NCBI GenBank assembly: GCA_951802425.1
Contig: OX637795.1
Span: forward strand, 3,824,501 to 3,888,500
Origin: Clavaria fumosa
Lineage: Eukaryota > Basidiomycota > Agaricomycetes > Agaricales > Clavariaceae
DNA length: 64,000 bases
Direction of reading: 5' to 3'
This document shows, piece after piece, positions 1,490-41,697 of this stretch. The number at the start of each line of letters is the position of its first letter. Positions within the stretch are counted from its first letter, which is position 1. A program made the position numbers and the translations under genes. The notes beneath the pieces are model-generated. The model was not told where the DNA came from. It did not search any database and was given only the letters and a program-made list of their open reading frames with translations.

Positions 1490-1573
1490 GCGAACCCTGA
1501 CCCCGATATGCGCGTCGAACAACCCGAGCAGCAGCAACTGACGACCGAAGAAGTGCTGGCGGGGTGTCGGGCA

Positions 1574-1710
1574 CATCAGCAAAACAGCTCGGCTAAATGT
1601 AAGTATGGACAGGTATGGACTGGTGTGTAACACCCCAGGTTGTCTTGGGGTGTTACATACCAGTCCATACCTCTCTATACCGACAACTTAGCCGAGCTGT
1701 TTTGCTGATG
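1574..1710. mobile_element. Foldback MITE-like hairpin, 137 bp
   Basis: The ends are perfect 23-bp inverted repeats (CATCAGCAAAACAGCTCGG and its complement, plus 4 more bp). Inside, a second 25-bp inverted pair with one mismatch flanks a loop of about 7 nt, so nearly the whole element can fold on itself. There is no coding capacity. No clear target duplication is visible, so the class is unknown. Confidence 0.6.
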
Positions 1711-1835
1711 CATACCGCATCCGGATTCGAAGCCAGAAAAATCGTTCATCTTCCTGAGCGCATTTAGTGGAAGGGTGGCATCCAAAACAACATTTTCGCT
1801 ATCAACAAACACATATATCTTTGCACATGGTATTA

Positions 1836-2356: not shown

Positions 2357-2512
2357 TAATTTGAGCTTTGGAGACTCAAAAATCCGAAGTGGAATCCTTG
2401 TGCGGACGTTGGGAAGACAATGCTAAATTACAACATCAGTCATATGCTGCGTCGACGGGAATCGGATCTTACCGCAATCACTACATTTATTCCTCGAACC
2501 TTTGCTTTGGAT

Positions 2513-4203: not shown

Positions 4204-4262
4204 TGCAGAGACAGATTTAATCAAACTTGAAATAATATAATTGGGTTTCCTGATCAGTAATC

Positions 4263-5301
4263 TCACCTTTTTGTGGTGCCAGATACTTGTGGCCTGCAGA
4301 TCACATAGGCAGCTGAGGCTGCCTCCTCTTCATATGTCATTCCTGGGTCTAATGCAAACTCTGCTGTGTAATCTATGGCTGGTGTGATAGCCACAGCTTT
4401 TGGGTTGACAGGCACAGTCTGGGTGACTGATGTATCCACATCTCCACCCTCACTTTTGGAATCAACAAGCTTATTTCCAGCTGAAGATTGAGAAGAATGG
4501 TTCCAGGTAGCATTCAGATATGAATACAGAGCAGTGAACCTGAGGACAACTATGTGTCCCTGAGAAGTGATCACTGCCACAGCATCAGTGATGGAGTCAT
4601 ACATTTTCCGATAAGCCACAGGAAGCCAGCAAAGTTTGGGTTGTGTGAGGGCATTGGATAGCCATCCATTTTCAATGATATATGGCCATGACTTTCCACA
4701 ATTTGAATCATTGTGAATGTGGTCAAGAGCACCAGTGACTGCATCCCACAATCTTACAGTCTTGTCATCAGACCCTGAGACTATCCTTGTGCCATCTGGA
4801 GAGAATGACACTGATGTGACCCAATCAGAATGGCCCTTGAGTTTTTGTAAATGAGCACCAGTGACTACATCCCACAGTCTCACAGTCTTGTCCCAAGACC
4901 CTGAGACTATCCTTGTGCCATCTGGAGAGAATGACACTGATGTGATTGAGTTGGAATGGCCCTTGAGTGTTTGTAAATGAGCACCAGTGACTGTATCCCA
5001 CAGTCTCACAGTCTGGTCCCAAGACCCTGAGACTATCCTTGTGCCATCTGGAGAGAATGACAATGATGTGATACGATTAGAATGGCCCTTGAGTGTTTGT
5101 AAATGAGCACCAGTGACTGCATCCCACAATCTCACTGTCTCATCATAAGACCCTGAGACTATCCTCATGCCATCTGGAGAGAATAACATTGATGTGATAC
5201 AATTAGAATGGCCCTTGAGTGTTTGTAAATGAGCACCAGTGACTGCATCCCACAGTATCAAAGTCTGGTCCCAGGACCCTGAGACAATCCTTGTGCCATA
5301 T
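4263..5301 (-). pseudogene. NLR gene, 3' segment: WD repeats 10-14 and C-terminal tail
   Basis: This frame starts inside WD repeat 10, immediately beside the LTR of element A at 5302. It encodes four further complete WD repeats of 42 residues, each with the GHS...SFSPDGTRIVSGS...TVRLWD pattern, and then a non-repeat tail of about 155 residues. In the tail, the stretch NGWLS...LCWLPVAYRK...HIVVLRF resembles the end of other fungal NACHT-WD40 proteins. The coding sequence continues in phase from 12100-13382 once element A and one copy of CATAT are discounted. The repeats differ mainly at a few positions after GHS (NCITS, NRITS, NSITS, DWVTS), the pattern expected of a ligand-selective WD40 surface. 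It is a fragment because the transposons separate it from its NACHT part. Confidence 0.85.
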
Positions 5302-5589
5302 TGTTAGGATTGCTTACCTAAGCCATCCCAAAAGGAGGTGTTGTGGAGAAATTAGAGAAGATTGTTGGAAGGTCACATGACCTGTGGTGGAGGATTACAT
5401 AATCGGGAGATCACATGACTTGGGCCTGGGCGCATCACATAATCCGAGAGGTCCGAGCGTGGGAACGCCGGCAAATGCCGAAGCGTTCGCTATATATACT
5501 ACGTCTTTTCCATTCTTGTACCCTTTTCCCCTTATCTTAGTATTGTCGTCATGACCTTACGCTTAAGTTGTGTGAGACCCAGTCTGATA
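5302..5589 (+). repeat. 5' LTR of element A copy 1
   Basis: It starts TGTTAGGATTGC and ends CAGTCTGATA. It contains three TCA(C/T)(A/G)TGA-type palindromic sites, a TATA box at 5491-5498, and the predicted RNA start near 5534. U3 is then about 232 nt and R-U5 about 56 nt. Confidence 0.95.
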
Positions 5590-5601
5590 TAATACTAAGA
5601 T
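5491..5601 (+). promoter_or_regulatory. TATA box, predicted RNA start and self-complementary primer site of element A
   Basis: A TATATATA box at 5491-5498 is followed 36-43 nt downstream by ATCTTAGTATT (5534-5544). The expected primer-binding position, one base after the LTR end, reads AATACTAAGAT (5591-5601), its exact reverse complement over 11 nt. This is the arrangement known from Tf1-type elements, where the RNA 5' end itself primes reverse transcription. The same pair occurs in copy 2 (primer site 49508-49518). Confidence 0.75.
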
Positions 5602-6119
5602 CCGCCTGTCCGCCCTAGCCCCGTGTCCTAACCCGGCTAGCCTGGACCCTTAATTTCAAACTGTGACACGTTGTCACAGCTCAGCCCCTATCATCCTCTT
5701 CTCCTTTACCCTGCCTGCGGTGTGTAACAGAACCACGCGAAATTTTTACTGTGTGTAGATACACGTGACCAGACCAGGAGGAAGTCAACTGTGACCCTCC
5801 CCAAGTGATACCGAGTGCCCAAGGCCCGGAACTTTGTTTTACAGCTACGTACCAGTGAATCGTGTAGTGTACAGGGCGAGGAAAGGCCCCTACATAGTCT
5901 TTCTGCAGTTTCCTGGTCCAGTGGACAGGGCCCTTGCTCTGTGACCATTGTCAGAAGGGTGCATGGGCAACTCATTAGGAGTTGTGGAGCGACCACCTGG
6001 GACACCATTTGGGCCCCACGCTACCAATAGTTTCATAGAATAAGAGTTCTATAGGTACATAAGTACACAGAAGAGCAGCCTAAGAGGACAGGACTGTTAA
6101 GAGATCGAAGAAATCCTGA
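5590..6119 (+). other. Element A untranslated leader with hairpin
   Basis: There is no coding sequence here. An inverted repeat CTGTGACA-cgt-TGTCACAG (5661-5679) forms an 8-bp stem and is conserved in copy 2 (about 49431-49449). A short direct repeat around 'gcccaaggcccggaact' occurs twice (about 5816 and 6121), close to the gag start. Confidence 0.6.
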
Positions 6120-6775
6120 GTGCCGAAGGCCCGGAATTTTATTTTACAGTGCTACAGAATGCTGGACCTAGCTGTTGCCCCCTTTGATGGGCAGAAAAGG
6201 AACTTCTGTACATTCCTCCGATCCCTTCGCCTCCTGTTTATGGCGAACCCGACTGTCTATGCTGTGGACCTGGTGAAGGTCCTTTTTGCTCTGAGCAAAA
6301 TTACTGGAGAAGGATTTGCTGCAGAGTGGGCGAATATGAAGGCGGAAGAGATCCTGGGTAGTGGCAAGGCCAGAACCTGGGCAGAGTTTGTGGAGGAGAT
6401 GAAGTGTGCATTCAATGACCCAAATGACCATGCGACTGCCCTTGCCAATATTGCAGGGCTGAAACAGGGTGCCATGACAGCACCAGAGTTCTTCGCGAAA
6501 TTCGAGACGCTGTTCCGACAGGCGAAGTTGAGTGCAGAGAAGGACTCAGGAATCCTAGTCCATTGGCTGGAGTTGAACCTGAGTAGGAGGTTGGTGGAGA
6601 GAATCTATGGTGTCTCCCCGATGCCAGAGACATATGGAGAATGGAAGGTGCTGGCTGAGAGGCTTGATGCCCAGCAAAGGTGACTGGATGGGATACTCAC
6701 GGAACGGACACCGCAACCCACTGTGACCCCCACACGACCCACCACGACCCTACCATGACCTGCCGTGACCATTTC
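6120..6775 (+). pseudogene. gag: gag of element A copy 1 (capsid part), truncated
   Basis: This encodes a capsid-type Gag of about 185 residues, closely matching the intact 213-codon gag of copy 2 (39104-39745), with motifs PFDGQKRNF, WADMKAEE-like and SPMPETYGEWK. The first residues of the intact gag are replaced by unrelated sequence, and the frame ends at a TGA (6681-6683) where copy 2 has CGA. Gag packages the RNA into virus-like particles. This frame has no zinc knuckle; the knuckle is encoded in the next frame. Confidence 0.85.
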
Positions 6776-8646
6776 GCGACCTCTTGTGACCCCTCTGCTG
6801 TGTACTCCAGACGTGGCCATGGCCCGAGGATGGGCCCCTGCTGATGAGAGATGTTGTTTCCAATGCCACCAGACTGGCCATGCTGTCCATTTCTGCCCCC
6901 TGCCTGACACGTGTCTGCAGGTCCCAAGGGCCCAAACCTGGGCAGCACCATGTGCCCCCCAAATGGCGGAGGGATATGAGAAAGAGATTGCATGGCTCTG
7001 AGCCTGCATAGAGCTGTGTGAGAGAGAGAGGAGGACTCCCACTGGGGAGAAGAAGTGTGCCAGCCCCCTTTCCGTCCCTGTGCCTGCTGCAAGTATACCC
7101 CGATATACTATCTTGCAGCGGAGACATACCCGAATTGGGGCTGAGGTGAAGGAGGAAGTGAGACTGGCAGAGCGCCTAACCAGAGTGCGGCCAGAAGTGC
7201 AGAAACATGTGCCACAAGAGCTAGCCATCCAGGTGCACTTGGAGGCTTTCAGCACTGGCAAAGGGACCACAATGAAGGCCCTTGTTGACTCAGGGTGCAC
7301 CAACTGCTTCATGGATTTGGAGTGGGTGAAAGGAGTGGGACTGGAGCCATCTCTCCTGCTGAACCCAATCACCATGTATAATGTGGATGGGACACAGAAC
7401 AGGAATGGAAAGGTCCGGTATGGGATAGAGGTGCTGGTGAGAGTTGGTGACCACCAGGAGCGGATCCACTTTCTGCTGGGAAAGACCCAGTCCCACAAGG
7501 TCATCCTTGGGCATGACTGGCTCAAGCGGCATAACCCGGATATTGACTGGCAGAAGGCAGAGCTGAGCCTTACCCGCTGCCGGCCACAGTGTTCCCCATC
7601 CCCTCAAGCCCCTGCACCCCTGAAAATGAGTACCCTCGCATCCACAAGTATTCTGGACACCCGTTTTCCCAACTCTGGCCCTACCCCTGATTGGCCCAGC
7701 TGCTACCCTTTGGTGTTTAGTGAAGCGAAGTGGGATGAACTTCCCCGCTCCCGACCAGACTTCAATATTAAGATTGAGTTCAAAAAGGACCCTGAGCACC
7801 TCTCTTCCAAGCTGTATTCTTTGACACGGCAGGAGATGGTGGAGATGAACCGTTGGGTGGATGAGCAGCTTGCTTCTGGACAAATCTGGCCCTCGAAATC
7901 CCCATATGCCAGCCCCTTCTTCTTCAAACATGAGAAGGACAAGCTGTGGCTGATCATCGACTACTCGAGGCTGAATGCACACCTGATCAAGGACAAGTAG
8001 CCCCCTTTCCATCCCTGTGCCTGCTGCAAGTATACCCCAATATACTATCTTGCAGCGGAGACATACCCGAATTGGAGCTGAGGTGAAGGAGGAAGTGAGA
8101 CTGGCAGAGCGCCTAACCAGAGTGCGGCCAGAAGTGTGGAAACATGTGCCACGAGAGCTAGCCATCCAGGTGCACTTGGAGGCTTTCAGCACTGGCAAAG
8201 GGACCACAATGAAGGCCCTTGTCAACTCAGGGTGCACCAACTGCTTCATGGATTTGGAGTGGGCAAAAGGAGTGGGACTGGAGCCATCTCTCCTGCTGAA
8301 CCCAATCACCATGTATAATGTGGATGGGACACAGAACAGGAATGGAAAGGTCCGGTATGGGATAGAGGTGCTGGTGAGAGTTGGTGACCACCAGGAGCGG
8401 ATCCACTTTCTGCTGGGAAAGACCTAGTCCCACAAGGTCATCCTTGGGCATGACTGGCTCAAGCAGCATAACCCGGATATCGACTGGCAGAAGGCAGAGC
8501 TGAGCCTTACCCGCTGCCCCCCACAGTGTTCCCCATCCCCTCGAGCCCCTGCACCCCTGAAAACGAGTACCCTCACATCCACGAGTATTCTGGACACCCG
8601 TTTTCCCAACTCTGGCCCTACCCCCGATTGGCCCAGCCGCTACCCT
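6776..8646 (+). pseudogene. pol: Nucleocapsid knuckle, protease and start of RT, tandemly duplicated
   Basis: The first part holds a CCHC zinc knuckle (CFQCHQTGHAVHFC near 6855-6896), then a retropepsin-like domain with LVDSGCTNC (residues after 7290) and the start of RT up to NAHLIKDK, where a TAG follows. About 937 bp then repeat: protease appears again at 8017-8427, now with DSG changed to NSG, and ends at a CAG-to-TAG stop. Several Arg codons of copy 2 are Trp, Gln or Cys here, all explained by CpG transitions. It cannot produce a working polyprotein. Confidence 0.85.
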
Positions 8647-8935
8647 TTGGTGTTTAGTGAAGCAAAGTGGGATGAACTTCCCCGCTCCCGACCAGACTTC
8701 GATATTAAGATCGAGTTCAAAAAGGACCCTGAGCACCTCTCCTCCAAGCTGTATTCTTTGACACGGCAGGAGATGGTGGAGATGAACCGTTGGGTGGATG
8801 AGCAGCTTGCTTCTGGACGAATCCGGCCCTCGAAATCCCCGTATGCCAGCCCCTTCTTCTTCAAACATGAGAAGGACAAACTGCGGCCAATCATCGACTA
8901 CTCGAGGCTGAATGCACACCTGATCAAGGACAAGT
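7062..8935 (+). repeat. 937-bp tandem duplication inside pol
   Basis: Sequence from about 7062 to 7998 is repeated at about 7999-8935, about 97% identical by eye. The junction (near 8000) joins the RT sequence for NAHLIKDK to the region upstream of protease. The intact copy 2 has one copy. Confidence 0.9.
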
Positions 8936-10176
8936 ACCCCCTCCCCCGCATCCGAGACACAGTGGATGTGCTTAAAGGAGCGTGGATCTACTCTAAGATT
9001 GATGCAAAGGGAGGTTTCCCATCTATGCAGGTCTGGCCCAAGCACCAGCACTGCTGCACCTTCCTGACACCCCGTGGACTCTTTGAACCAGCTGTCATGT
9101 GGTTTGGACTGCAGAATGCCCCTGCTACCTTCCAACGCTTCATGAATCATGTGTTGAGGGAGGAGATTGCAGGAGGACATGTGAGGGCCTATGTGGATGA
9201 TGTCATTGTGTTTGCAGAGGACTTGGCTACACACTGGTACTGGATGGATCAGGTCTTGAGGAAGTTTGGAGAGAATGGGTTGTGTCTCAAACTCAGTAAA
9301 TGCGAGTTTGAGAAGAGTGAGATCATCTTCCTGGGGATGAAGATCTCCCACAACAGACTAGAGCATGATCCGGCCAAGGGTGCGGCAGTCCGAGATTGGC
9401 CATGTCCTAAGAATGTGAAGGATGTCCAGAGGTTCAATGGGATGCTGAACTACCTCCGCCGGCACATCCCGAATCTTTCTGCCCAGGCAAAGCCACTCTT
9501 CCGGCTGACTGGGAATGTTCCATGGAAATGGGAGGAGGAGGAGGAAGCAGCCTTCCAAGATCTCCGCCAGGCACTCGTATTGGCCCCAGTCTTGGCTCTG
9601 CCTCAGGACAAAGGGAGATGGAAGGTAGAGACAGATGCGAGCAACCTGGCAACTGGTGGAGTGCTCTCGCAGCAGCAGATGGATGGAACCTGGAGAGTTG
9701 TTGACTATATCTCCAAGGCCCTCACTGCAGCTGAGAAGAACTACAATGTGTACGACAAGGAGTTCTTGGCTGTGATTCGGGCACTTCGTGAGTGGCGAGC
9801 ATACCTCATTGGAGCAGAGGAGACGATCGAGATCTGGACAGACCATGCAAACCTCCAGTACTTCCGGAAGCCCCAGAAGTTGAAGCCGAGGCAGGTTCGT
9901 TGGGTTGGGGAGCTCCAGTGCTTTGACATCGAGATCAAGTATCGCACTGGCAAGTCAAACACAAAGGCAGACGCACTCTCCTGGAGACCAGACTATGGAG
10001 AGATGGTGGAGGAGGATGCACCGGTGCAGGTTTTCCCGGAAATGGAAGTCTGTGTGTCTTTCACATCAGAAATGGAGATGCTACTCCAGAAAAATAGCGC
10101 GGTACACATACAGAAGCCAGAGGAGCTTGATATGAGTGGACACGAGATCGTGCTGGACTCTGGCGAAAGGGGATAG
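8647..10176 (+). pseudogene. pol: Reverse transcriptase and RNase H of element A copy 1
   Basis: This is a 509-codon open stretch. RT motifs include PIIDYSRLNAHL, the catalytic YVDDV (near 9190) and FLGMKIS. RNase H follows with ETDASNLATGG and TDHANLQYF. The catalytic residues are preserved, but the frame is lost near 10130, where one base is missing relative to copy 2 (LDMSG instead of LDDEW). It is therefore disconnected from integrase. Confidence 0.9.
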
Positions 10177-10819
10177 TCACTTGGGTCCCCCTAGGAGCTC
10201 GTGAGGCCGTCCTCAAGTTTGAGCATGACCTCCCTGCTGCTGGACACCCTGGGCCCTGGAAGTTGAGAGCGGCACTAGTGAAGGGTTATTGGTGGCCGGA
10301 CATGGTGAAAGATGCAGATCAGTATGCCCAGGGGTGTGAGACCTGCCAGCGGACGAAGCCTGACTGTACCAAGCGTGCTGCCCCACTGCACCCCCACCCT
10401 GTTCCTGATGGTCCCTGGTCAGTGATCTCATGGGACATAGTCGGTCCACTCCCCCTCTCCCATGGACATAATGCCATCCTTGTCATCGTTGACAAGTTCA
10501 CAAAACGGACACTGCTCAAGGCAATCGGACTTGACCTCACAGGACTTGGAGCAGCACGTCTCCTCTGGGATTGAGTGTTTCATGACCATGGAGTCCCTCA
10601 TAAGGTCGTGAGTGACCAAGGCTCCCAGTTTGTGTCTCGGTTCATGAAGGAGTTCTACTCTATGATCCGAGTAAAGGCAAACCCAAGTATGGCCTTCCAC
10701 CCACAGACTGATGGACAGACAGAGCAGGCGAATCAGGAGATGGAGATCTATCTCTGGGCCTATGTGGACCACCTCCAGGACGATTGGGCTGAGTGGTTGT
10801 TGACTGCTGAGTTTGCTCT
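10177..10819 (+). pseudogene. pol: Integrase, N-terminal and catalytic part, element A copy 1
   Basis: It encodes the HHCC zinc-binding region (GYWWPDMVKDADQYAQGCETC), the first catalytic Asp (SWDIVGPLP), then SDQGSQF (Asp retained, neighbouring Arg changed to Gln) and QTDGQTEQANQE with the catalytic Glu. A CGA-to-TGA stop lies at 10572-10574. The frame is cut at 10819 by a solo LTR and resumes at 11116. Confidence 0.85.
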
Positions 10820-11110
10820 TATCAGACTGGGTCTCACACAACTTAAGCATAAGGTCATGATGACAATACTAAGATAAGGGGAAAAGAGTACAAAAAAGGA
10901 AAAGCGAAAGTACTTATAGCGAACGCTTCGGCACTTGCCGGCGTTCCCACGCTCGGACCCTCAGATCACGTGATGCGCCCAGGCCCCAGGTCATGTGATC
11001 TTACATGATTACATAATCCGACCCAGCCACAGGTCATGTGACCTTCCAACAACCCTCCCCAGTTTCTCCACAACTGCACTTTGGGATGGCTTACATAAGC
11101 GATCCTAACA
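10820..11110 (-). mobile_element. Solo LTR of family A nested in integrase
   Basis: It is a 291-bp LTR of family A in reverse orientation to its host element, beginning TATCAGACTGGG and ending GATCCTAACA on the plus strand. The target duplication GCTCT is at 10815-10819 and 11111-11115. No internal sequence remains, as expected after LTR-LTR recombination. Confidence 0.95.
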
Positions 11111-11115
11111 GCTCT

Positions 11116-11800
11116 TAACAATCGTGAGCACTCCGCGACAGGACAGACACCTTTCTTCCTCGATTATGGATGACACCCTTGGAATGGGGGACTCCACCCA
11201 TCTTCTGAGGTGAACCCAGCAGCGGATGAGTGGATGGCTAAGCTCACAGAGTCCCGAAGAGCAGCCAAGGAGGCAATGGAGAAAGCAGTGGCAGCGATGA
11301 AGAAGAGCTACGATAAGGGGAAACGCCCAAGTCAGGAGTACTCTGAGGGAGATCTGGTCTGGCTGGATACTAGAAACCTAAAGATGGACCGGCCCTTTAA
11401 AAAGCTTGACAACAAGAGAGCAGGCCCCTTTGCAGTTGAGGAGAAGGTGGGACCTGCTGGGTATCGCCTCAAGCTCCCTCGGGCCTGGCACATCCATCGG
11501 GTCTTCAACGAGTTGCTGTTGACGCCATACCATCCCCCTTCCTTCCCTTCCCAGAATCTACCTCCCCCTCCACCCCCTACAATTGAAGATGACCACCTGG
11601 AGTATGATGTGGAGGCAATCCTTGATGTCAAGAAGGTGGGGCGTGGGGTGAAGTACTTGGTGAAATGGTTGGGATACCCAGTGGAGGAAAATACTTGGGA
11701 GCCCTGTAGGAACCTCACCAATGTAGCACTGCTGCTCGGGGACTTCTTCCTTGCCCACCCTGACAAAGCCAAGCTAGCTGGTCAAGATGCCCAGCCTTAA
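11116..11800 (+). pseudogene. pol: Integrase C-terminus and chromodomain, element A copy 1
   Basis: The 196-codon frame from 11210 carries the GPY/F-type region (GPFAVEEKVGPAGYRL), a proline-rich linker and a chromodomain (EYDVEAILDVKKV...YLVKWLGYP...NTWEP). In chromoviruses this domain targets integration to chromatin marks such as H3K9 methylation. It ends 11 bp before the 3' LTR. Confidence 0.9.
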
Positions 11801-11811
11801 GAGGGGGGTGA

Positions 11812-12099
11812 TGTTAGGATTGCTTACCTAAGCCATCCCAAAAGGAGGTGTTGTGGAGAAATTAGAGAAGATTGTTGGAAGGTCACATGACCTGTGGTGG
11901 AGGATTACATAATTGGGAGATCACATGACTTGGGCCTGGGCGCGTCACGTGATCCGAGAGGTCCGAGCGTGGGAATGCCAGCAAATGCCGAAGCGTTCGC
12001 TATATATACTACGTCTTTTCCATTCTTGTACCCTTTTCCCCTTATCTTAGTATTGTCATCATGACCTTATGCTTAAGTTGTGTGAGACCCAGTCTGATA
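11812..12099 (+). repeat. 3' LTR of element A copy 1
   Basis: It has the same ends and length as the 5' LTR. The differences are almost all C/T or G/A at CpG sites, for example GCGCATCACATAATCC against GCGCGTCACGTGATCC. Confidence 0.95.
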
Positions 12100-13382
12100 C
12101 ATATGGAGAGAATGACACTGATGTGATTGATTTGGAATGGCCCTTGAGTGTTTGTAAATGAGCACCAGTGACTGCATCCCACAGTCTCACAGTCTTGTCA
12201 TCAGACCCTGAGACTATCCTTGTGCCATCTGGAGAGAATGACAATGATTTATTCCAGATAGAATGACCATTGACTGTTGGTAGATGAACCCCAGTGACTG
12301 CATCCCACAGTCTCACAGTCTGGTCCCAAGACCCTGAGACTATCCTTGTACCATCTGGAGAGAATGACACTGATGTGATTGAGTTGGAATGGCCCTTGAG
12401 TGTTTGTAAATGAGCACCAGTGACTGTATCCCACAGTCTCACAGTCTGGTCCCAAGACCCTGAAACTATCCTTGTGCCATCTGGAGAGAATGACACTGAT
12501 GTGATTGGGTTGGAATGGCCCTTGAGTGTTTGTAAATGAGCACCAGTGACTGCATCCCACAGTCTCACAGTCTCATCATAAGACCCTGAGACTATCCTTG
12601 TGCCATCTGGAGAGAATGACATTGATGTGACACAATTAGAATGGCCCTTGAGTGTTTGTAAATGAACACCAGTGACTGCATCCCACAGTCTCACAGTCTG
12701 GTCCCAGGACCCTGAGACTATCCTTGTGCCATCTGGAGAGAATGACACTGATGTGATTGGGTTGGAATGGCCCTTGAGTGTTTGTAAATGAGCACCAGTG
12801 ACTGCATCCCACAGTCTCACAGTCTCATCATAAGACCCTGAGACTATCCTTGTACCATCTGGAGAGAATGACACTGATGTGACTTGCCCAGAATGGCCCT
12901 TGAGTGTTTGTAAATGAGCACCAGTGACTGCATCCCACAGTCTCACAGTCTCATCATAAGACCCTGAGACTATCCTTGTTCCATCTGGAGAGAATGACAC
13001 TGATGTGATTGAGGTGGAATGGCCCTTGAGTTTTTGTAAATGAGCACCAGTGACTGCATCCCACAATCTCACAGTCTTGTCATCAGACCCTGAGACTATC
13101 CTTGTGCCATCTGGAGAGAATGACACTGATGTGATTGAGGTGGAATGGCCTTTGAGTTTTTGTAAATGGGCACCAGTGACTGCATCCCACAATCTCACAG
13201 TCTTGTCATCAGACCCTGAGACTATCCTTGTGCTATCTGGAGAGAATGATGCTGATATCACCTCACTAGAATGCTCCATGACCTGCACACATGCACTCCA
13301 ATGTTTTTGCAATGCTCCTTCTACCAATACTGATCCATCTGTTTTATCATGATGTGTTATGTAAAGTTCTGTACCCACTGGA
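12100..13382 (-). pseudogene. NLR gene, middle segment: linker and WD repeats 1-10
   Basis: Reading on the minus strand from 13382, a linker of about 50 residues is followed by WD repeats beginning EHSSEVIS and then by nearly identical 42-residue units. The DNA unit is 126 bp. Identity between units is so high that only the positions after GHS (TSITS, GQVTS, NPITS, NCVTS, NSITS, IWNKS, KSITS) and after GS (DDKT, YDET, WDQT) vary. Repeat 10 is cut by element A at CATAT. Together with 4263-5301 the array totals 14 repeats, enough for two seven-bladed propellers. High identity and diversity at surface positions are known from HET-D/HET-E-type recognition proteins; relevance here is inferred. Confidence 0.9.
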
Positions 13383-13799
13383 TGTCGGGCTTGTGACAGC
13401 AAAACCCCTTTGGTGTGCAAGGGTAGAGCGAAGGGTCTGCTCAGTTTCTAAGGCTAGTCGGTAGTCCTGGCGGACTTGTCTCTCGATATGCAGGGAATAC
13501 TCCTGCAGTAGTCGAAGTGTCTGGTAATAAGTCTGGGGATTGGCTTGGAGTAGCCAGTCCTTTATCCAAGTTCTTGTATACCTTTGGTAGTACTCGAACT
13601 GATAGAGGTTCTGCTCAATCGATGGGTGGCTGGTGAAACTCTCAGGAGGGATGACTTGTGACCTTAAGGGTGGGAAGACAAATCCTTCCAGCACAAAGTT
13701 CTCAGCAGCGACATTTGCTGTCAGACTTAGTTGAGGTCTCTCAAGTAAGTGTATAGACGAAAAGATCGAAGCTAGGGTACATGTGGGTTGGTCCCAGGT

Positions 13800-14255
13800 C
13801 TTATATACTCTAGCTATGGGCTGTACATGATGTATGAGTCATTGATTAAATATCGGAATCTGATAGATGATCAGGAAAGCTGCGTGCTTGCACTGGAATG
13901 ATGAGTCTGAGCAGTGTCGATCTTTGTTGGGATCCTTGTGATGATGATGTCATCAGCGATCAGATAGGGTCCCCGCTTCGATGCATTACATCACAGTCAG
14001 CTGCGTCTGATCTTGTTGGGGATATGATCGGAGGATCAGATGATCTGTGATCGAGCTGTTCTGAGTCATGATTACTTGATCGATTGGTGTGATGCAGTGA
14101 TCGAGTGAAACTGATCTTTGATCAGAGATCTTCTTAGGGGTGATCGTGTCTGGTGGATAGGGGTCTGCCCAATCGAGGTCGAGATCAGCCCGTGGTGGTT
14201 ATTGGATAAAAGGACGGTCTTCCTTCTTTCGCTGTCTCTTCAGAGTCTGCCTGCT
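13800..14255. promoter_or_regulatory. Putative divergent promoter in the element B LTR, GATC-rich
   Basis: Between the sense TATA box (GAGTATATAAGACC on the minus strand, about 13800-13812) and the antisense gene start (14256) lie about 16 GATC tetramers in some 320 bp; about one would be expected. Several are GATCGA or TGATCA. A TATA-like GGATAAAAGG (about 14205) lies about 50 bp before the antisense ATG. GATCGA is reported as a White Collar photoreceptor site in Neurospora; whether that applies here is inference. Confidence 0.5.
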
Positions 14256-15042
14256 ATGTGTTTCCAAGGCCACCACCTTGTCGAGTTCTTCCACAGCTCT
14301 TCTCTCTTCGCTCCCCGCACTGGGATCAAGCTCTCCTGCGATACCTTCCACTGGTGGGTTCAACTCGTCCCTGCCGATGCGGACCTCTATTGGGTCCTCG
14401 ACCGGTGCTTCACCTGTGGGGATCCCTCCCACCTTGTCAAGGATTGCTCCTTGACTCAAGGTCCCTACCGACGTATCTGTGACCTTCTCGAGGACCCTCA
14501 TGGTGAGCTAGCCGAGCTGCTTCTCTCTGTCTCCAGTAAGTCTGATTCTTTATAGATTGGGACTGGGCTCCTCCCCGTTCTCCCTTGCCAACTGTTTGGG
14601 CCACCACCCCTTGGGGTGACCAAGGTACCTGGTACCAAGGTGGGCAGGATTGGGCTGAGATCGGTTCTGGTCCTGTACACCTGGCTTACCGTCCCCAGGT
14701 CCAGACCTCCAACCTCTGGATACCCCGTTGGTGGCGCCTCCTCCGTCGCCCTCCCTTCCTACCGTTGACCTCCCCCCCGCCTATTCCTCCCTCCCGTCTC
14801 CTACTCTGGACGACGGAGGTTCTCTCGGCACTGTGCGAGATCTGCGAGAGGCTGCCCTGGAGGTGGGAATCTGGGATGGTCAGTTTGCCTCCCATCCCTT
14901 GAGGGTAGCTCTCAGGTTCGTGGGTGAGTCTGACTTCTCAGACTCTTCAGATGAGTTGTGGGAAGAGGAGTCTTGGGGATCTGAGTACGGCGCCTCGGGC
15001 TCCTCCCTTGATGAAGAGGGGTCTTGGCTTTCTTTCGTGTAG
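14256..15042 (+). CDS. LTR-encoded antisense zinc-knuckle protein (element B copy 1, 3' LTR)
   Basis: Exon 1 (14256-14535) starts at ATG and encodes MCFQGHHLVEFF... followed by a CCHC knuckle CFTCGDPSHLVKDC (C-x2-C-x4-H-x4-C). A 5' splice site GTAAGT (14536) pairs with CCCCAG (14698), giving a 163-nt intron. Exon 2 (14699-15042) is then in phase and is proline-rich with an acidic Ser-rich end, for 207 residues in total. If unspliced, the frame stops at 14555 (99 residues from the ATG). Against the B2 copy, exon 1 differs at 15 sites, of which 14 are synonymous in this frame; exon 2 shows no such bias (about 3 synonymous, 7 replacement), so exon 2 is tentative. The transcript runs antisense to gag-pol. 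The knuckle suggests nucleic-acid binding; the role is unknown. Confidence 0.6.
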
Positions 15043-15063
15043 ATAAGTATTGTACTTATCTTG
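15042..15063. promoter_or_regulatory. Palindromic GATA pair in element B LTR
   Basis: GATAAGTA-ttg-TACTTATC gives two inverted GATAAG sites, and CGATAAA follows. It lies about 115 bp inside the U3 end and directly after the antisense gene stop, so it could act as a GATA-factor site or as a 3'-end hairpin. It is present in all five B LTRs. Confidence 0.4.
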
Positions 15064-15465
15064 CGATAAAATATATAGTTGGGGTTTAGCCCCTTGTTCG
15101 CTTGATTTGCATGGTGTTTCTTAAGTTAAAGGATTGAAATTTGCTGGCCTGATAGTACAGACGACGCTTTCATGACACGACCCTCTCTCTTAAGCTTCAC
15201 CGGAGATTTTCGAGGATGAACCACAGGCCTTCCTCTTCTTTGCAGTCATCCAGACGAACTCTGGATGGGTGTCATGAAAGTGCCTAATTGCCTCTTCTGC
15301 GTGTCCCAATTCTTTCTCTGGCTTCCACATGTCTTCGTTTGGTCCATACCCTTCCCATCCGACTAGGTATTGTTTCTGACTTTGCCATAGTCATCCATCC
15401 TTGATCTCTCCAATCTCATACTCCTCCTCTCCCTCCACTTCCACTGGTGGTGGTGGGGGTTCTAT

Positions 15466-17093
15466 TCATCCTGGAATCATTGATTCTTTGTATGGATATA
15501 GTAGGGAGATGTGAAACACTGGGTGGACCTGAATCGAGGTTGGTAGTTCCAATTTGTAGTTGACGTCAGAGAGAACTTCAATGATTTCAAATGGCCCTAG
15601 TTGTCGATCGGCCAGTGTCTTGCTGGGGGCTGTAGTGGTGATATTTCTGGCATCTAACCACACCTTCTGTCCTAGTTTAAATGGTGATTCTTTCTGACGG
15701 TCCTTGTCGTAGTACCACGCCATTTGTTCCTGAGACAGCTTCATAGCTGCTCTCAGTTCGTCCTGTACCTGATGGAGATGGCTGATCACTTCCTCCGCCT
15801 TGGGCACCCCTGTATCTTTTCCTGTGTCAAATGTCATCCTTGGATGATACCCTCTCGCAGCATAGAAGGGAGATTGCTTAGTGGTGGTGCTAACATTGTT
15901 GTTGTAGGCGAATTCTGCCATTGGCAGGTAGTGGCTCCAGTCATTCTGTCGATAGCGACAGAAGAGTCGTAAATATTGCTTCAAGGTCTGATTGATTCGC
16001 TCAGTCTGTCCATCTGTCTGTGGGTGGTATGCAGTGGAATAGGCCCCCTGTACACCTAATTTCTTGAACACTCCTCTCATCAGCTTGGATGTGAATTGTG
16101 TTCCTCGGTCCGAGATCATCTTTTCTGGGACCCCATGCAGCTTCCAGACATGTTGTAAATACAAGTCAATGGTCTCTTCTGTGTCGATGTCTGACTTGAC
16201 TGGAATGAAATGTGCTTCCTTGGTTAGATGGTCCGCTACCACCCAAATTCCATCATATCCTGCCGACTTAGGTAATCCCACAATGAAGTCATTGGTGGCC
16301 ACCTGCCAAGGTTGTTCTGCTGGTGGAATGGGTCGAAGTTCCCCTCTGGGCTTCTGCGCCCAGTTCTTCTTCCGATTGCAGGTGTCGCAGGTTTCTACGT
16401 AATGCTTGATGTACCTGGTCATTCCTGGCCACCAGTAGTTTCGGGAAATAAGTTCCATTGTCTTGTAGACCCCTGGATGGCCTACTTCCAGTGAGTCGTG
16501 GTGTAGTTTAACCAGATCTCTTCGTATCCCTGGGTTATCTGGTACGCATACCTTCCCCTGGAAGAGTAGCAGTCCGTCTTCCAGGTTCCAATCTTCCAGT
16601 CCCTTTCGCAGTTGCCTTGGTCCCATCTTCAGGAGTTTCATTGCTTCCATTACCTCAGGGTCATATTCTACTTCCTTCCTAATTCGTTTCTGAATAGGAT
16701 GATCCTGGAGGCTCGAAGCATGTCCTCTCTTCATGGCACAGATCCTAATCCTTTCTGGTTGTAGTGCTTCTGGGGAGTTCAGCTGTAGGACCTGCCATCC
16801 CTGGTTGTCTGGGGTTTCTGGCTTATGGTCGGGTCTCCGTGATAGTTTGTCTGGCTTCCCTCCCAGCCGTCCAGGTCGATGCTTGATCTTGTAATCAAAT
16901 CGTGTCAGGAATAAACCCCACCTCACCTGCCTCCGGGTAAGTGTCTGTGCTCCTCCAAAGTACTGTAAGTTCTGATGGTCGGATAGAATGGTTACCCGGT
17001 GTCGTGCCCCTTCTAAGTAGTGTCGCCACTGCTTAAGAGCCAGAATGATAGCCAGTAACTCCTTGTCGTAAATCTGATAGTTCCTTTCAGCGG
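15466..17093 (-). pseudogene. pol: RNase H end, integrase and C-terminus of pol, element B copy 1
   Basis: Minus-strand frame with the end of RNase H, the integrase zinc region (HHDSLEVGHPG...CDTCNRKK), catalytic ATNDFIVGLP, SDRGTQFTS and DGQTERINQTL, then the GPF/GPY region. It stops at 15466 (CGA-to-TGA), just before the chromodomain that B2 still encodes. Its upstream end is cut at 17093 by a solo LTR. The interrupted RNase H sequence continues at 18893. Confidence 0.9.
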
Positions 17094-18887
17094 TGTCATG
17101 AAAGCGTCGTCCGTACTATCAGGCCAGCAAATTTCAATCCTTTAACTTAAGAAACACCATGCAAATCAGGCGAACAAGGGGCTAAACCCCAACTATATTT
17201 TATCGCAAGATAAGTACAATACTTATCTACACGAAAGAAAGCCAAGACCCCTCTTCATCAAGAGAAGAGCCCGAGGTGCCGTACTCAGACCCCCAAGGCT
17301 CCTCTTCCCACGACTCATCGGAAGAGTCTGAGAAGTCAGACTCATCTATGAACCCGAGAGCTACCCTCAAGGGATGGGAGGCAAACTGACCATCCCAGAT
17401 TCCCGCCTCCAGGGCAGCCTCTCGCAGATCTCGCACAGCGCCGAGAGAACCTCCGTCGTCCAGAGTAGGAGACGGGAGGGAGGAATAGGCGGGGGGGAGA
17501 TCAACGGTAGGAAGGGAGGGCGACGGAGGAGGCGCCACCAACGGGGTATCCAGAGGTTGGGGATCTGGACCTGGGGACGGTAAGCCGGATGTACAGGACC
17601 AGAACCGATCTCAGCCCAATCCTGCCCACCTTGGTACCAGGTACCTTGGTCACCCCAGGGGGTGGTGGCCCAAACAGTTGGCGAGGGAGGACGGGGAGGA
17701 GCCCAGTCCCAATCTATAAAGAATCAGACTTACTGGAGATAGAGAGAAGCAGCTCGGCTAACTCACCATGAGGGTCCTCGAGAAGGTCACAGATACGTCG
17801 GTAGGGACCTTGAGTCAAGGAGCAATCCTTGACAAGGTGGGAGGGATCCCCACAGGCAAAGCATCGGTCGAGGACCCAGTAGAGGTCCGCATCGGCAGGG
17901 ACAAGTTGAACCCACCAATGGAAGGTGTCACAGGAGAGCTTGATCCCAGTGCGGGGAGCGAAGAGGGAAGAGCTGTGGAAGAACTCGATGAGGTGGTGGC
18001 CTTGGAAACACATAGCAGGCAGACTCTGAAGAAACGGCGAGAGGAGGAAGACTGTCCTTTTATCCAATAACCGCCACAGACTGATCTCAACCTCGATTGG
18101 GCAAACCCCTATCCACCAGACACGATCACCCCTAAAGAAGATCTCTGATCAAAGATCAGTTTCACTCGATCACTGCATCACACCGATCGATCAAGTGATC
18201 ATGACTCAGAACAGCTCGATCACAGATTACCTGATCCTCCGATCATATCCCCAACAAGATCAGACGCAGCCGACCGTGATGTAATGCATCGAAGCAGGGA
18301 CCCTATCTGATCGTTGATGACATCATCATCACAAGGATCCCAACAAAGATCGACACTGCTCGGACTCATCATTCCAGTGCAAACGCGCAGCTTTCCTGAT
18401 CATCTATCAGATTCCAATATTTAATCAATGACTCACACATCACGTACAGCCCATAGCTAGAGTATATAAGACCTGGGACCAACCCACATGTACCCTAGCT
18501 TCGATCTTTTCGTCTATACACTTACTTGAGAGACCTCAACTAAGTCTGACAGCAAACGTCGCTGCTGAGAACTTCGCACTGGAAGGATTCGTCTTCCCAC
18601 CTTTAAGGTCGCAAGTCATCCCTCCTGAGAGTTTCACCAGCCACCCATCGATTGAGCAGAACCTCTATCGGTTCGAGTATTACCAAAGGTATACGAGGAC
18701 CTGGATAAAGGACCGACTACTCCGAGCCAATCCCCAGACTTATTACCAGACACTCCGACTACTGCAGGAGTATTCCTTGCACATTGAGAGACAAGTCCGC
18801 CAGGACTATCGACTAGCGTTAGAAACTGAACAGACCCTTCGCTCTACCCTTGCACACCAAAGGGGTTTTGCTGTCACAAGCCCGACA
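17094..18887 (+). mobile_element. Solo LTR of family B nested in RNase H
   Basis: It is a full 1794-bp LTR in the opposite orientation to its host element. The target duplication is AGCGG at 17089-17093 and AGTGG at 18888-18892; the intact B2 sequence has AGCGG, so the right copy carries one C-to-T change. No internal sequence remains. Confidence 0.95.
17227..18013 (-). CDS. LTR-encoded antisense zinc-knuckle protein (solo LTR copy)
   Basis: This is the same gene as at 14256-15042, here on the minus strand because the solo LTR is inverted. Exon 1 is 18013-17734, intron 17733-17571, exon 2 17570-17227. Both exons are open, the CCHC knuckle reads CFACGDPSHLVKDC, and the GTAAGT and CCCCAG splice signals are kept. 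Being in a solo LTR, it could be expressed independently of gag-pol. Expression is not shown. Confidence 0.55.
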
Positions 18888-22100: not shown

Positions 22101-22931
22101 CTGCAAATGATCTCTATGATCCTTCCTTCCAGGTTACACTCGATTTGTACTTCTGCTCTGAGTGCGTCAAGCCAGGTGATTGGGTACCCTAGGTTGGTGT
22201 AGTCTCGGTGTTTAAACTCGAGTGCGGGCACAAATGAGATGACTGGATTTCTCTATCCCTTCCTGGGCAGCGTATAATACTTGCAGGTTCCGATGTGCAG
22301 TTCTCCTCTGAATGGTTCTGGGGGGTATTACTCTCCCTAAAGGTTGTGTCCACAATACTGCGGCGTCTAAGACTCGTCCCACTACGTTCTGTTCCAAATT
22401 GGTAACAGAGATATCTGAATCGTCTGGGTCAATGTGTCTTCTTCTTCTTCAAGGTAGTCTCTCTCGTCTTTCTTCAGAGGTGTCTGTGGTCTCCCAATCC
22501 GGTTCTCTCTCTTGCTCTAGGCTTACTGAAGAGCTTTGATCTTGTGTCGGGCTTGTGACAGCAAAACCCCTTTGGTGTGCAAGGGTAGAGCGAAGGGTCT
22601 GCTCAGTTTCTAAGGCTAGTCGGTAGTCCTGGCGGACTTGTCTCTCGATATGCAGGGAATACTCCTGCAGTAGTCGAAGTGTCTGGTAATAAGTCTGGGG
22701 ATTGGCTTGGAGTAGCCGGTCCTTTATCCAAGTTCTTGTATACCTTTGGTAGTACTCGAACCGATAGAGGTTCTGCTCAATCGATGGGTGGCTGGTGAAA
22801 CTCTCAGGAGGGATGACTTGCGACCTTAAGGGTGGGAAGACAAATCCTTCCAGCGTGAAGTTCTCAGCAGCGACATTTGCTGTCAGACTTAGTTGAGGTC
22901 TCTCAAGTAAGTGTATAGACGAAAAGATCAA
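22101..22931 (-). pseudogene. ORF1 of element B copy 1 (starts in LTR, no ATG)
   Basis: This frame runs from R-U5 of the 5' LTR through the leader towards gag. Protein features: helical, Arg/Gln/Tyr-rich (YYQRYTRTW, RQVRQDYR), then acidic. It is interrupted near 22449 by a CGA-to-TGA stop, and a further piece is visible at 22212-22397. See the B2 copy (46798-47686). Confidence 0.45.
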
Positions 22932-24339
22932 AGCTAGGGTACATGTGGGTTGGTCCCAGGTCTTATATACTCTAGCTATGGGCTGTACATGATGTATGAG
23001 TCATTGATTAAATATTGGAATCTGATAGATGATCAGGAAAGCTGCGCGCTTGCACTGGAATGATGAGTCTGAGCAGTGTCGATCTTTGTTGGGATCCTTG
23101 TGATGATGATGTCATCAGCGATCAGATAGGGTCCCCGCTTCGATGCATTACATCACAGTCAGCTGCGTCTGATCTTGTTGGGGATATGATCGGAGGATCA
23201 GATGATCTGTGATCGAGCTGTTCTGAGTCATGATTACTTGATTGATCGGTGTGATGCAGTGATCAAGTGAAACTGATCTTTGATCAGAGATCTTCTTAGG
23301 GGTGATCGTGTCTGGTGGATAGGGGTCTGCCCAATCGAGGTCGAGATCAGCCCGTGGTGGTTATTGGATAAAAGGACAGTCTTCCTTCTTTCGCTGTCTC
23401 TTCAGAGTCTGCCTGCTATGTGTTTCCAAGGCCACCACCTTGTCGAGTTCTTCCACAGCTCTTCTCTCTTCACTCCCCGCACTGGGATCAAGCTCTCCTG
23501 CGATACCTTCCACTGGTGGGTTCAACTCATCCCTGCCGATGCGGACCTCTATTGGGTCCTCGACCGATGCTTCACCTGTGGGGATCCCTCCCACCTTGTC
23601 AAGGATTGCTCCTTGACTCAAGGTCCCTACCGACGTATCTGTGACCTTCTCGAGGACCCTCATGGTGAGCTAGCCGAGCTGCTTCTCTCTGTCTCCAGTA
23701 AGTCTGATTCTTTATAGATTGGGACTGGGCTCCTCCCCGTCCTCCCTCGCCAACTGTTTGGGCCACCACCCCCTGGGGTGACCAAGGTACCTGGTACCAA
23801 GGTGGGCAGGATTGGGCTGAGATCGGTTCTGGTCCTGTACACCTGGCTTACCGTCCCCAGGTCCAGACCTCCAACCTCTGGATACCCCGTTGGTGGCACC
23901 TCCTCCGTCGCCCTCCCTTCCTACCGTTGACCTCCCCCCTGCCTATTCCTCCCTCCCGTCTCCTACTCTGGACGACGGAGGTTCTCTCAGCGCTGTGCGA
24001 GATCTGTGAGAGGCTGCCCTGGAGGCGGGAATCTGGGATGGTCAGTTTGCCTCCCATCCCTTGAGGGTAGCTCTCGGGTTCGTGGGTGAGTCTGACTTCT
24101 CAGACTCTTCAGATGAGTTGTGGGAAGAGGAGTCTTGGGGGTCTGAGTACGGCGCCTCGGGCTCCTCCCTTGATGAAGAGGGGTCTTGGCTTTCTTTCAT
24201 GTAGATAAGTATTGTACTTATCTTGCGATAAAATATATAGTTGGGGTTTAGCCCCTTGTTCGCCTGATTTGCATGGTGTTTCTTAAGTTAAAGGATTGAA
24301 ATTTGCTGGCCTGATAGTACAGACGACGCTTTCATGACA
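22545..24339 (-). repeat. 5' LTR of element B copy 1
   Basis: It is 1795 bp. It carries the antisense gene at 23418-24204, but exon 2 there has a CGA-to-TGA stop (about 24007), so this copy is broken. The self-primer pair (22924-22935 and 22532-22543) both carry the same CpG change and stay complementary. Confidence 0.95.
23418..24204 (+). pseudogene. LTR-encoded antisense zinc-knuckle gene, broken copy
   Basis: Exon 1 (23418-23697) is open with the knuckle CFTCGDPSHLVKDC, and the splice signals are kept. Exon 2 (23861-24204) has a premature TGA where the other copies have CGA. It is the only one of five copies with a stop in the predicted spliced frame. Confidence 0.55.
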
Positions 24340-27006
24340 CTGGAATGAAAGGCAGTGCAGTGAAATACACCTGCAAGGCAGACACACTAAGTGCTGGAAA
24401 GAACTCTTGAATCATTCTTTCACTGTCATAAAGCAGTGCTAAGACAACTGGATCTCTAGAGCTATTCATCTGCAAAATATCACTTGTCAGCATTGTCTGT
24501 CCCAGAGCTTCAAACCATGCACATACCTTCAAGCATCCCTGCACAGCCACCAACATCTGAATTGCATCTTTCAGATATCCAAGGAGACTGCAGACCTCAA
24601 TCCAGTTCACCAAATACTTCAAGCAAAAATCTTTCAAAAGCTGCAATAGGTCACTTGAAAGCAATCCACTGCAAATATGCAATCCCCAATGTCTACATGC
24701 ATACTCTAGACTGCATGAGATATCTCTTGATATCTTTTCTGAGAGACCTGGCACTTCATGGTTGAATTTTGTAGGATCTCCTATGCCACATATATCCTTC
24801 TTCAGCCTTGCCATCAAAGTCAAGCACCTCTTGGCAAGAATGGTGTGTTGCATTTGGGGATTGACTCTGAACTGTAGTGCCTGCACTTTCTGGCATCTGT
24901 TGTGGTCCACAATAAAGTCAACAAATGATGGGTGGATTAACTGGATAACTCCAGCACTGTCTGCTGGGATAATCATGATTGACTGCAATTGCTGAAGATA
25001 GTGGTTGTGGTCAAGCAGATCCTCCAATTGATCTAATGGGAGGGGATCCTGGAGGAGAGCAATAGCTCCAAGAAACAAGTGCAATTTGGCTGCAAGTTGA
25101 TCAGAAATATTTGAAAATGTGCTTTTGAGCACTTGAGAGTACAACTGATCTAGATGCTGCTGTGGAGATGTGCCAGCAACAGGCTTTTTTTGCAAAAGTA
25201 CCTCCAATTGTGCCACAGGATCACCTGGATCAGCCATCCCAATGAACCTTACTGCAGTGGCAGCAAAAATGAAGAGGCCTGAAGACATATGTGTCAAGGT
25301 TTCAATATCTATAGAAGATGGCCAGGGAGCAAGAATGTGATATTGATCCTTGATCTCATCAAATTGCTGTTCCAAATAATGCTTGATATCACTTTCAACA
25401 ATGTCCGAGTCAACTTGATGAAGAATCAAAGGTCTGGTTTCATTGCTGAGATATGGATATTGAATGGGTCTACTGGTGATGAGGAATTGCAATGGGAACA
25501 GCTTGTTAATGTGTTGAGACAAGGATGCCAAAATGGTTGATGTGGCATTGTCATCTTTGCACTCATCCAATGCATCAATCACAACCACACTCCGAGGAAA
25601 CTTCTCTCCAACAGCAAGCAGTGGCTTCACAATCAACTTCTGCAGCTGATAGGAGACATCAGAGTAGACAATTTCCGGGTCAGACCTAAGAATATCTGAA
25701 AGGACAGCCTTGAACTCCGGGCAAAATTTTCCCATCTGATAGGCAATGGTAGTGAACACCAGTTTGATGTCACTGCAATCAGCATTATCCCTGGAGCAAA
25801 AGAAGTTTGCAGCCAGGATGCCTTTGTCCTGACAATGCTCTGCACAGGTAAACGCAATTGTTGTCTTCCCACTTCCAGCTAAACCATTGATCCAAAATAT
25901 TGGACTCCCCACCCCTGCAGGTCTACCAAAGCCTGGAGAGGGGACAGGTACACCCTCCTGGTCCCAGGTGCACTCAGGATAACTAATCCACTGGAATACT
26001 TCTTCAAGAACTTTGACACGGGTTCCAGGGAGACAAGGAACTAGCTTCCCCCTGTAACGGAAATGGGCCCCAATTGCATAGGGAAGATTCAAACCACCTG
26101 TACAAGTCAGCATCAGTAATGTACTGCAGCCGGACTAAACTATTACCATAAGCATCAGGTTTTATCTTGATTTCCTGATACATGATTTAAGTCAGAGACT
26201 GGACAAGGAATGCCGACAGAACAAAACACGCTTCAATGCCCTCTTGATTTCTCTCAATCTTTTCCTCAATTCGGGTCATAACTTTTCCTGTGAACCCAAC
26301 ATGTTCCTAGTCATTTAAACAATCAGGTTTTGGCTTTTGTCAGATTTGACACTGATAAACTTACCTCAAGGGCAAACTCTAACTTGCTTTGAGCCTGACA
26401 TCCAGGCAGCTCCATTTAGAGAGTGTAAATGGCACAGCATATATACTCACCAGAAAACTTTCAATAGACCGATGGATAGCAGAAATGCAGCTTGCAATCT
26501 CATGAGCATCTCGACGGTGGGCGAAGACGTGTTTGGCATAGTTCCGATCAACTATGTTTTGGGCCCGGGCACCCATGGACTTCCATGATCTTCCATCCAG
26601 GATAAGCAATGCGCACACCAAGGGATGGTGGCTTACTCAGAAAGACTGTTGATACGGTCAACCATGGCTTCTGATAAGACACCTTTATTGGTATTCAACA
26701 CCCTCTTCAGCATGGCATCCAAGTCCTGAACACGTTGGGCCAGTGAAACCAAGTCATCGCCGATTTGTTTGGTTTTCTGGATGAGGGACAGGTGAGAAGT
26801 GCGACAGTCCAGTAAATGAGATGGATTTTGCACACCTGAACAGCATCAAGGAGGATGACGAAGCCCTTGATGCCTTCTTGAAGCCCTGGCACACCCGTCC
26901 TGCCTGCGACCTCCTTGAACCGGTCGAGAGCATTCTGGAGACTGACGAAGGCAATTGAGCGGGGTCCTAACTTCAGCTTCTCCGCTACAGGGCTTTGTGG
27001 CCCCAT
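24340..27006 (-). pseudogene. NLR gene, 5' segment: helical N-terminus and NACHT
   Basis: Probable start ATG at 27006 (MGPQSPVAEKLKL). Exons 27006-26836, 26776-26637 and 26589 to about 26453 are joined by introns 26777-26835 (59 nt) and 26590-26636 (47 nt), both in phase. They encode a helical domain (FKEVAGRTGVPGLQEGIK; QIGDDLVSLAQRVQDLD) resembling the MLKL-like four-helix domains of many Agaricomycete NLRs. Short exons follow down to about 26.1 kb, not fully resolved. The NACHT frame (26113-24340) has a P-loop GLAGSGKT (residues 77-84), Walker B VVVIDALDE (176-184) and sensor ITSRP (211-215), then a helical region. It is cut by element B at CTGGA; without B the frame runs into 13382. The expected role is NTP-dependent oligomerisation leading to cell death in non-self recognition; this is inferred from the family. 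Confidence 0.85.
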
Positions 27007-41685: not shown

Positions 41686-41697
41686 CGACCCTCTCTC

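Follow-up and report, generated by a model that had tools for sequence, protein, structure and literature searches.

The LTR and its antisense reading frame

The window, i.e., the whole 64-kb stretch of DNA that was analyzed, contains five copies of an LTR of ~1.8 kb (family B; blastn within the window). The element carrying it is a chromovirus (Ty3/Gypsy), as Pfam recognizes RT, RNase H, integrase, and a chromodomain in its pol (41698–45522, minus strand); the complete gag-pol of the element B2, comprising a gag with CCHC, protease, RT, RNase H, integrase, and chromodomain, occupies 41698–46811 (minus), the strand opposite to that of the gene in the LTR. The LTR copy on which our coordinates are based is the 3′ LTR of the element B1 (13383–15178; element sense minus). 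The other four are 95.3–98.4% identical to it: the 5′ LTR of B1 (22545–24340, minus; 98.4%; antisense ATG at 23418 on the plus strand, one stop in exon 3), an inverted copy (17093–18887, plus; antisense ATG at 18013 on the minus strand), the 3′ LTR of B2 (39892–41686, minus; antisense ATG at 40764, plus), and the 5′ LTR of B2 (47296–49089, minus; antisense ATG at 48168, plus), the last three being open throughout. As an earlier note on this DNA had described, all five carry a frame antisense to gag-pol with an ATG, a CCHC knuckle, and a GTAAGT. Four of the five are open, and this holds both for the structure proposed in that note (first stop at codon 208) and for the corrected one given here.

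In our model, a TATA-like box GATAAAAGG (14205–14213, plus), which is present in 71 of 79 LTR rows and lies ~50 nt before the antisense ATG, is a candidate antisense promoter. Exon 1 (14256–14502, plus) encodes residues 1–82 plus one base and holds the zinc knuckle (C51, C54, H59, C64). It is followed by a predicted intron 1 of 53 nt (14503–14555; GTGAGC ... CTGAT ... TTTATAG), of which the GT and a CTRAY branch site occur in all 113 aligned copies (GTGAGT in 96 and GTGAGC in 14; CTGAT in 111 and CTAAT in 2) and the AG in 112. Exon 2 (14556–14639, plus; WDWAPP...WATTPWGDQGTWYQG) is shifted in phase by intron 1 and is separated by a probable, less certain intron 2 of 59 nt (14640–14698; GTGGGC ... 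CTTAC ... CCCCAG) from exon 3 (14699–15042, plus), which encodes a Pro-rich part and then an acidic tail and ends with the stop TAG at 15040–15042 (TAG in 93 of 100 rows with data). The predicted product of the three exons is 224 residues long. Gene and TATA-like box (14205–15042) lie wholly within the LTR and not between pol and the 3′ LTR. We consider it highly probable (roughly 0.85) that this is a protein-coding gene, antisense to gag-pol and entirely inside the ~1.8 kb chromovirus LTR, which is under selection and spliced.

Selection on the antisense frame and the exon–intron structure

The genome searched consists of 48.8 Mb in 17 contigs, and the abundance of KDZ transposase matches in it points to an Agaricomycete mushroom. 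A protein search of it returned family B copies at 78–100% amino acid identity and a second group at 35–46% (best 150 of 190 candidates scored). The resulting alignment has 113 family B rows, with nucleotide identities to the window copy down to 81%; 101 of these have sequence past exon 1 and 94 of the latter are well aligned over all exons. Twelve copies were taken as exon 1 only and are absent from the three-exon counts, the 94-row frame test, and the final pN/pS values, from which seven rearranged rows (L046, L079, L090, L098, L100, L104, and L108) were also left out. The splice-signal counts and the strand test use all 113 rows, and the sliding phase scan and other early scans include the rearranged rows. 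In 90 of 113 copies exon 1 is intact, i.e., it has the ATG and the GT donor and is free of stops and frameshifts, and all three exons are intact in 70 of the 94 well-aligned copies, the other 24 being broken; these counts are blind to insertions relative to the window copy. An artefact of sampling by protein search was rejected as the source of the apparent selection, since the family B matches reach down to 78% amino acid identity and the next one is a mosaic at 46%, while neutral LTRs of 83–88% nucleotide identity would be expected in the gap (best 150 of 190 candidates scored).

Parsimony changes were classified in six frames as non-synonymous (N), synonymous (S), or nonsense (X), and the counts were set against those obtained when the changes were distributed randomly over matching bases (500 shuffles; 94 well-aligned copies, 88 of them distinct), r being the observed over the expected ratio of non-synonymous to synonymous changes; the shuffles treat changes as independent, so that small segments can look significant by chance. 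All three exons show frame-specific constraint, each in its own phase. For exon 1 in phase 0 the distinct changes amount to N66 S108 X3 (expected 115/55/6.6) and those on internal branches to N27 S79 X2 (expected 65/39/3.8; r 0.21). For exon 2 in phase 2 the corresponding values are N32 S32 X2 (expected 41/19/6.1) and N13 S29 X0 (expected 25/13/3.6; r 0.21). Exon 3 in phase 1 (14701–15039) has N124 S136 X2 (expected 170/83/9.0) and an r of 0.34 on internal branches. In none of these six comparisons was any of the 500 shuffles as low. The earlier note held that the last exon lacks the bias, a statement that is contradicted by the exon 3 counts, which were obtained in the very frame that it had proposed. 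Its count of 15 substitutions between B1 and B2 in exon 1 was reproduced (identity 0.946 over 14256–14534; N1 S13 in the first 82 codons), and the alignment of many copies in the frames of both strands, which it had suggested as a check, identifies the antisense frame as the constrained one.

The level of constraint differs among the exons. The pN/pS values are 0.080, 0.160, and 0.230 for exons 1, 2, and 3 (exon 1: 600 random pairs of the 94 rows; earlier values with rearranged rows included were 0.086, 0.178, and 0.377). Exon 1 is about as strongly constrained as pol, for which a single pair, B1 vs. B2, gives 0.082, and exons 2 and 3 are looser.

The paired LTRs of a single insertion have diverged since that insertion, and their changes indicate when selection acts. 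Fifteen LTR pairs, hand-picked from the copies by their spacing of ~7.4 kb (9.2 kb for B1 owing to its nested LTR), show near-neutral change, i.e., N43 S24 over the three exons (expected 47/20) and N10 S7 in exon 1 alone (expected 12/5). A sixteenth, doubtful pair (L076/L077, 8.46 kb apart) was dropped from this final count; with it included the result (N+X 49, S 37) departs from neutral (0.0035 of shuffles as low). Terminal branches, which mix time before and after insertion, are still constrained (ratios of 0.44 for exon 1 and 0.50 for all exons; rearranged rows included). Thus, constraint peaks in comparisons among elements and change within an insertion is close to neutral, as would be expected of a gene that replicating elements need.

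An alternative cause of this pattern would be selection on the sense strand, or on the structure of the LTR as DNA or RNA (R-U5), of which the antisense frame would be a shadow. The earlier note had stated that the overlapping sense frame takes nearly all of the exon 1 changes as replacements. The sense frames do take them mostly as replacements, except for the one that shares the wobble position, the only comparable one, which in exon 1 has almost the same ratio on internal branches as the antisense frame (0.23 vs. 0.21). This sense frame, however, contains 3 to 8 stops in exon 1 in each of the 113 copies and a stop in exon 3 in 100 of 101 copies. Of the variants shared by three or more copies, those that are silent on just one strand favor the antisense strand by 8:1, 1:1, and 13:3 in exons 1–3, or 22 to 5 overall, and r is lower for the antisense than for the sense frame in exon 2 (0.21 vs. 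0.41) and exon 3 (0.34 vs. 0.48). Furthermore, the two changes of phase coincide with splice signals and the amino acid sequence is kept between two families whose LTR DNA is hardly alignable (see below). We reject the sense strand as the constrained one, with the least confidence for exon 2, in which 72 of 100 copies have an open sense frame and the variants that tell the strands apart are evenly divided; as an explanation of the whole pattern it seems extremely unlikely.

Given selection on the antisense strand, the phase of the coding signal bears on the exon boundaries. In the sliding scan (rearranged rows included) the plus-strand coding phase is 0 up to ~14503, then 2, and then 1. For the change from 0 to 2, the length removed must equal 2 modulo 3, as is the case for the 53 nt of 14503–14555, and this segment has no frame signal of exon strength (lowest plus-strand ratio 0.49, 12/500; one minus-strand frame 0.39, 3/500). 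The earlier note had instead extended exon 1 to 14535 and predicted a single intron (14536–14698) and a product of 207 residues. In favor of this structure, perhaps as that of a minor isoform, are the openness of its frame in four of five window copies and the GTAAGT at 14536, of which the GT is kept in 112 of 113 copies. However, this GTAAGT sits inside the 53-nt intron and overlaps its branch site, no single frame is favored in 14503–14535 (similar r of 0.51 and 0.43 in phases 0 and 1; rearranged rows included), 14556–14639 is coding in another phase, and the intron of family C is found at the position of 14503, for which reasons this structure was rejected as very improbable. The note had also mentioned that removal of a 20-nt stretch ending in TTTATAG would lead into another open frame; that open frame is indeed there and is exon 2, but the stretch forms the 3′-terminal part of predicted intron 1 rather than an intron of its own. 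A literal 20-nt intron (14536–14555) was rejected, as the donor at 14503 already accounts for that acceptor.

The second change of phase, from 2 to 1, requires an intron 2, and the 59-nt segment 14640–14698 meets the requirement. Among rows with data, its GT is present in 100 of 100 and its CAG in 100 of 101. The donor falls in the least variable 25-bp bin of the LTR (14633–14657). Yet the bias of the exon 2 phase persists across 14640–14698 (r 0.48, 6/500 shuffles as low), and the join is, therefore, probable rather than proven and may be wrong or one of several. Exons 2 and 3 could instead be joined by −1 ribosomal frameshifting, which is the shift required, or by another intron further downstream, for which other conserved GT/AG pairs of fitting length are present. 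The conserved splice signals argue against both, as does the phase 1 bias, which is already present in 14701–14800 (r 0.55, 4/500), and no XXXYYYZ slippery heptamer was found in 14640–14705 of the window copy. We consider these alternatives to splicing of 14640–14698 to be rather unlikely.

The predicted protein, its relatives, and a second LTR family

All four ligands of the zinc knuckle (C51-x2-C54-x4-H59-x4-C64) are present in the window copy. Its match to the Pfam zf-CCHC model (PF00098; 19.6 bits) is under the cut-off of 20.8 bits, while E-values of 0.1 or lower were obtained for 17 of 20 aligned members, the best being 2.1e-05. Apart from zinc knuckles and one weak match to Per1, Pfam detected nothing in exon 1 of this copy and 19 relatives. 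In the PDB, the knuckle profile hits retroviral nucleocapsid as well as other knuckles that bind RNA. An hhalign comparison with the gag of B2 aligned 32 columns around the knuckle, at a probability of 50%, and revealed no homology to Gag outside this motif. The tail contains Pro and Trp and is acidic (24 D/E and 5 K/R of 142 residues), and AlphaFold models are poor (mean pLDDT of 56 and 58). The product may be a nucleic-acid-binding accessory protein of the element.

In a profile search, 11 public proteins among 2463 candidates matched at E ≤ 10. Eight of these (P0001–P0008) are homologous, with E-values of 5e-11 or better, so that the search for relatives elsewhere, as proposed in the earlier note, was successful; in P0009–P0011 the match covers 17–18% of the query only. 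P0001–P0008 are at most 85% identical over at least 60 residues to any genomic copy compared and, consequently, are probably from other species. All eight have kept the motif ICxLLxDP. WATTPWGDQGTWYQG is unchanged in P0004, P0005, and P0007, where it is in one frame with exon 1 through the would-be intron 1, and P0006 and P0008 represent a third, more distant type. Among viral contigs 35 stretches matched a pattern, of which none was confirmed.

A second family of elements (family C) carries a version of the same gene, which here too lies wholly within the LTR. Two such elements (L042 and L044) each have two LTRs of ~1.69 kb (1687 bp) that are 99.2–99.6% identical, with gag-pol on the other strand. 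Exon 1 of family C is 42.7% identical to that of family B in amino acid sequence over 82 residues (E 2e-22), the next best pair of frames being those of the opposite strand (E 9e-11); the pol proteins of the two families are 52% identical. The LTR DNA of the two families can be aligned at E < 0.1 over 27 bp only (14474–14500 of the window; 92.6%, E 1e-06). This short stretch encodes ICDLLEDPH, just before the donor of intron 1, and possibly serves as a signal in splicing or as a point of exchange. The intron of family C has the same codon position and phase as intron 1 of family B, with a GT, CTGAT, and AG, and is 52 nt long in six copies and 55 nt in one. A TATATAA box is found 40–45 nt before the ATG and the product, of 145 residues, has a tail different from that of family B (both in all seven copies examined). 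The pooled pN/pS of exon 1 in these seven copies is 0.20. With the mosaic described below included, 28 of the 47 C-type matches that cover the whole exon are without a stop (best 150 of 201 candidates scored). Exon 1 of family C alone as query retrieved no public protein.

One LTR (L039; G000 C12:2155500–2160000) is a mosaic in which a C-type exon 1 is joined to B-type exons 2–3; the TATA pattern used is absent within 100 nt upstream of its ATG. Two other sequences match exon 1 of family C, one at G000 C2:2829162 (60%, residues 3–50) and one at C5:381774 (49%, residues 1–83, one TAA), and these perhaps belong to yet another LTR family carrying this gene. Eleven C-type matches cover approximately residues 25–84 only, at 87–98% identity (among the matches listed, best 150 of 201), i.e., G000 C3:21565, C14:21358, C14:111038, C15:7581, C12:2608392, C11:2866572, C4:4565937, C7:73042, C9:75789, C1:5171665, and C2:4848630. 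Ten of them (C14:111038 uncounted) are located within ~195 kb of a contig end, eight within less than 80 kb, and they represent a piece of the C LTR inside a possible subtelomeric repeat.

Possible role and comparison with known antisense genes

The proposal of the earlier note that an antisense protein is translated is supported by the constraint specific to the antisense frame in 94 copies, by changes since insertion that are nearly neutral in 15 LTR pairs (less so with the sixteenth), by the amino acid identity with family C, and by the public homologues. Judging from the DNA, the TATA box inside the LTR would drive an antisense mRNA from which the 53-nt intron, and probably the second one of 59 nt, would be spliced out, giving the 224-residue protein with a conserved Cys/His-rich head, including one retroviral-type zinc knuckle, and a Pro/Trp-containing acidic tail. 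This accessory protein would bind nucleic acid, most likely the RNA or DNA of the element itself, and would be needed by the lineage producing it, either as a replication cofactor or as a regulator of sense expression. A role as suppressor of host silencing is possible as well.

We moderately favor an accessory protein serving the producing lineage over one that, like HBZ of HTLV-1, regulates the sense expression or assembly of its own element and thereby limits copy number rather than acting as a replication factor. The acidic tail would fit such a regulator, and the HTLV antisense proteins are described as repressors of sense expression (PMC9822710). The end of the gene (15042) adjoins a sense TATA-like stretch near 15066–15076 (read by eye), so that the sense and antisense units would converge there, and old copies could still provide the regulator, as the gene would be retained in full by a solo LTR. 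However, exon 1 is as constrained as pol, while a trans-acting restraint would be expected to erode as public goods do, and no regulator domain was detected by Pfam in exon 1, the part that was scanned. We consider a protein that limits copy number to be rather unlikely.

A gene held inside an LTR is known from MMTV, of which Sag shares this location with the present gene but differs in its sense orientation and its role as a superantigen. An antisense gene inside an LTR was not found in our literature search, which covered titles, starts of abstracts, and some passages. The gene brtn of Boty-like Gypsy elements in Botrytis cinerea and Sclerotinia, the role of which is given as unknown (Zhao et al., 2011, as cited in PMC7264820, PMC8365987, and PMC4227169), is likewise an extra gene that a fungal Gypsy element carries on the strand opposite to gag-pol. 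It is, however, placed between pol and the 3′ LTR (PMC7264820) and not inside the LTR. In the accounts cited, the antisense ORFs of plant elements (maize Grande gene23, rice RIRE2, and Retand with a TRP28 domain) likewise occur in most copies and are thought to bind nucleic acid or to regulate (PMC7264820, PMC11963269), but these accessory ORFs lie between pol and the 3′ LTR and have other domains. HBZ (HTLV-1) and APH-2 (HTLV-2) are described as spliced antisense genes expressed from the LTR, with start sites in the 3′ LTR that are without a TATA box (PMC9822710), and resemble the spliced antisense gene that is predicted here. HBZ is a bZIP factor starting without a TATA box, whereas the present gene has a TATA-like box and no bZIP was found in its exon 1.

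What looks new is the LTR as a location together with a new protein family, which would be added to the few antisense genes known from retroelements. More tentatively, and with somewhat less than even chances in our estimation, this may be an undescribed class of retroelement genes that are spliced, antisense, and wholly within the LTR, in which well over one hundred loci would supply a common trans-acting nucleic-acid-binding protein that controls or serves the population of elements, and in which the 5′ exon is exchangeable between families, as in the mosaic LTR. Each provirus would then hold two copies of the gene and a solo LTR still one. By the usual view, LTRs regulate and do not code, while here they hold an apparent intron-containing gene on the other strand in two families. 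If this gene is expressed, genome annotation and libraries of transposable elements miss a protein family, and solo LTRs are potential genes. It would also offer a tractable case for the role of antisense genes of retroelements, with a small zinc-knuckle protein, two diverged versions, and a natural mosaic.

The window contains further repeats and genes besides the elements described. A second chromovirus pol with its own chromodomain is located at 35304–39107 (minus; Pfam). Arrays of WD40 repeats, with units that are 87–96% similar, occur at 12059–13420 (minus) and 4727–5299, and a NACHT/NPHP3_N frame at 24332–26113 (minus; Pfam); these are perhaps parts of fungal NLR-like genes. A KDZ transposase family has at least 185 matches genome-wide.
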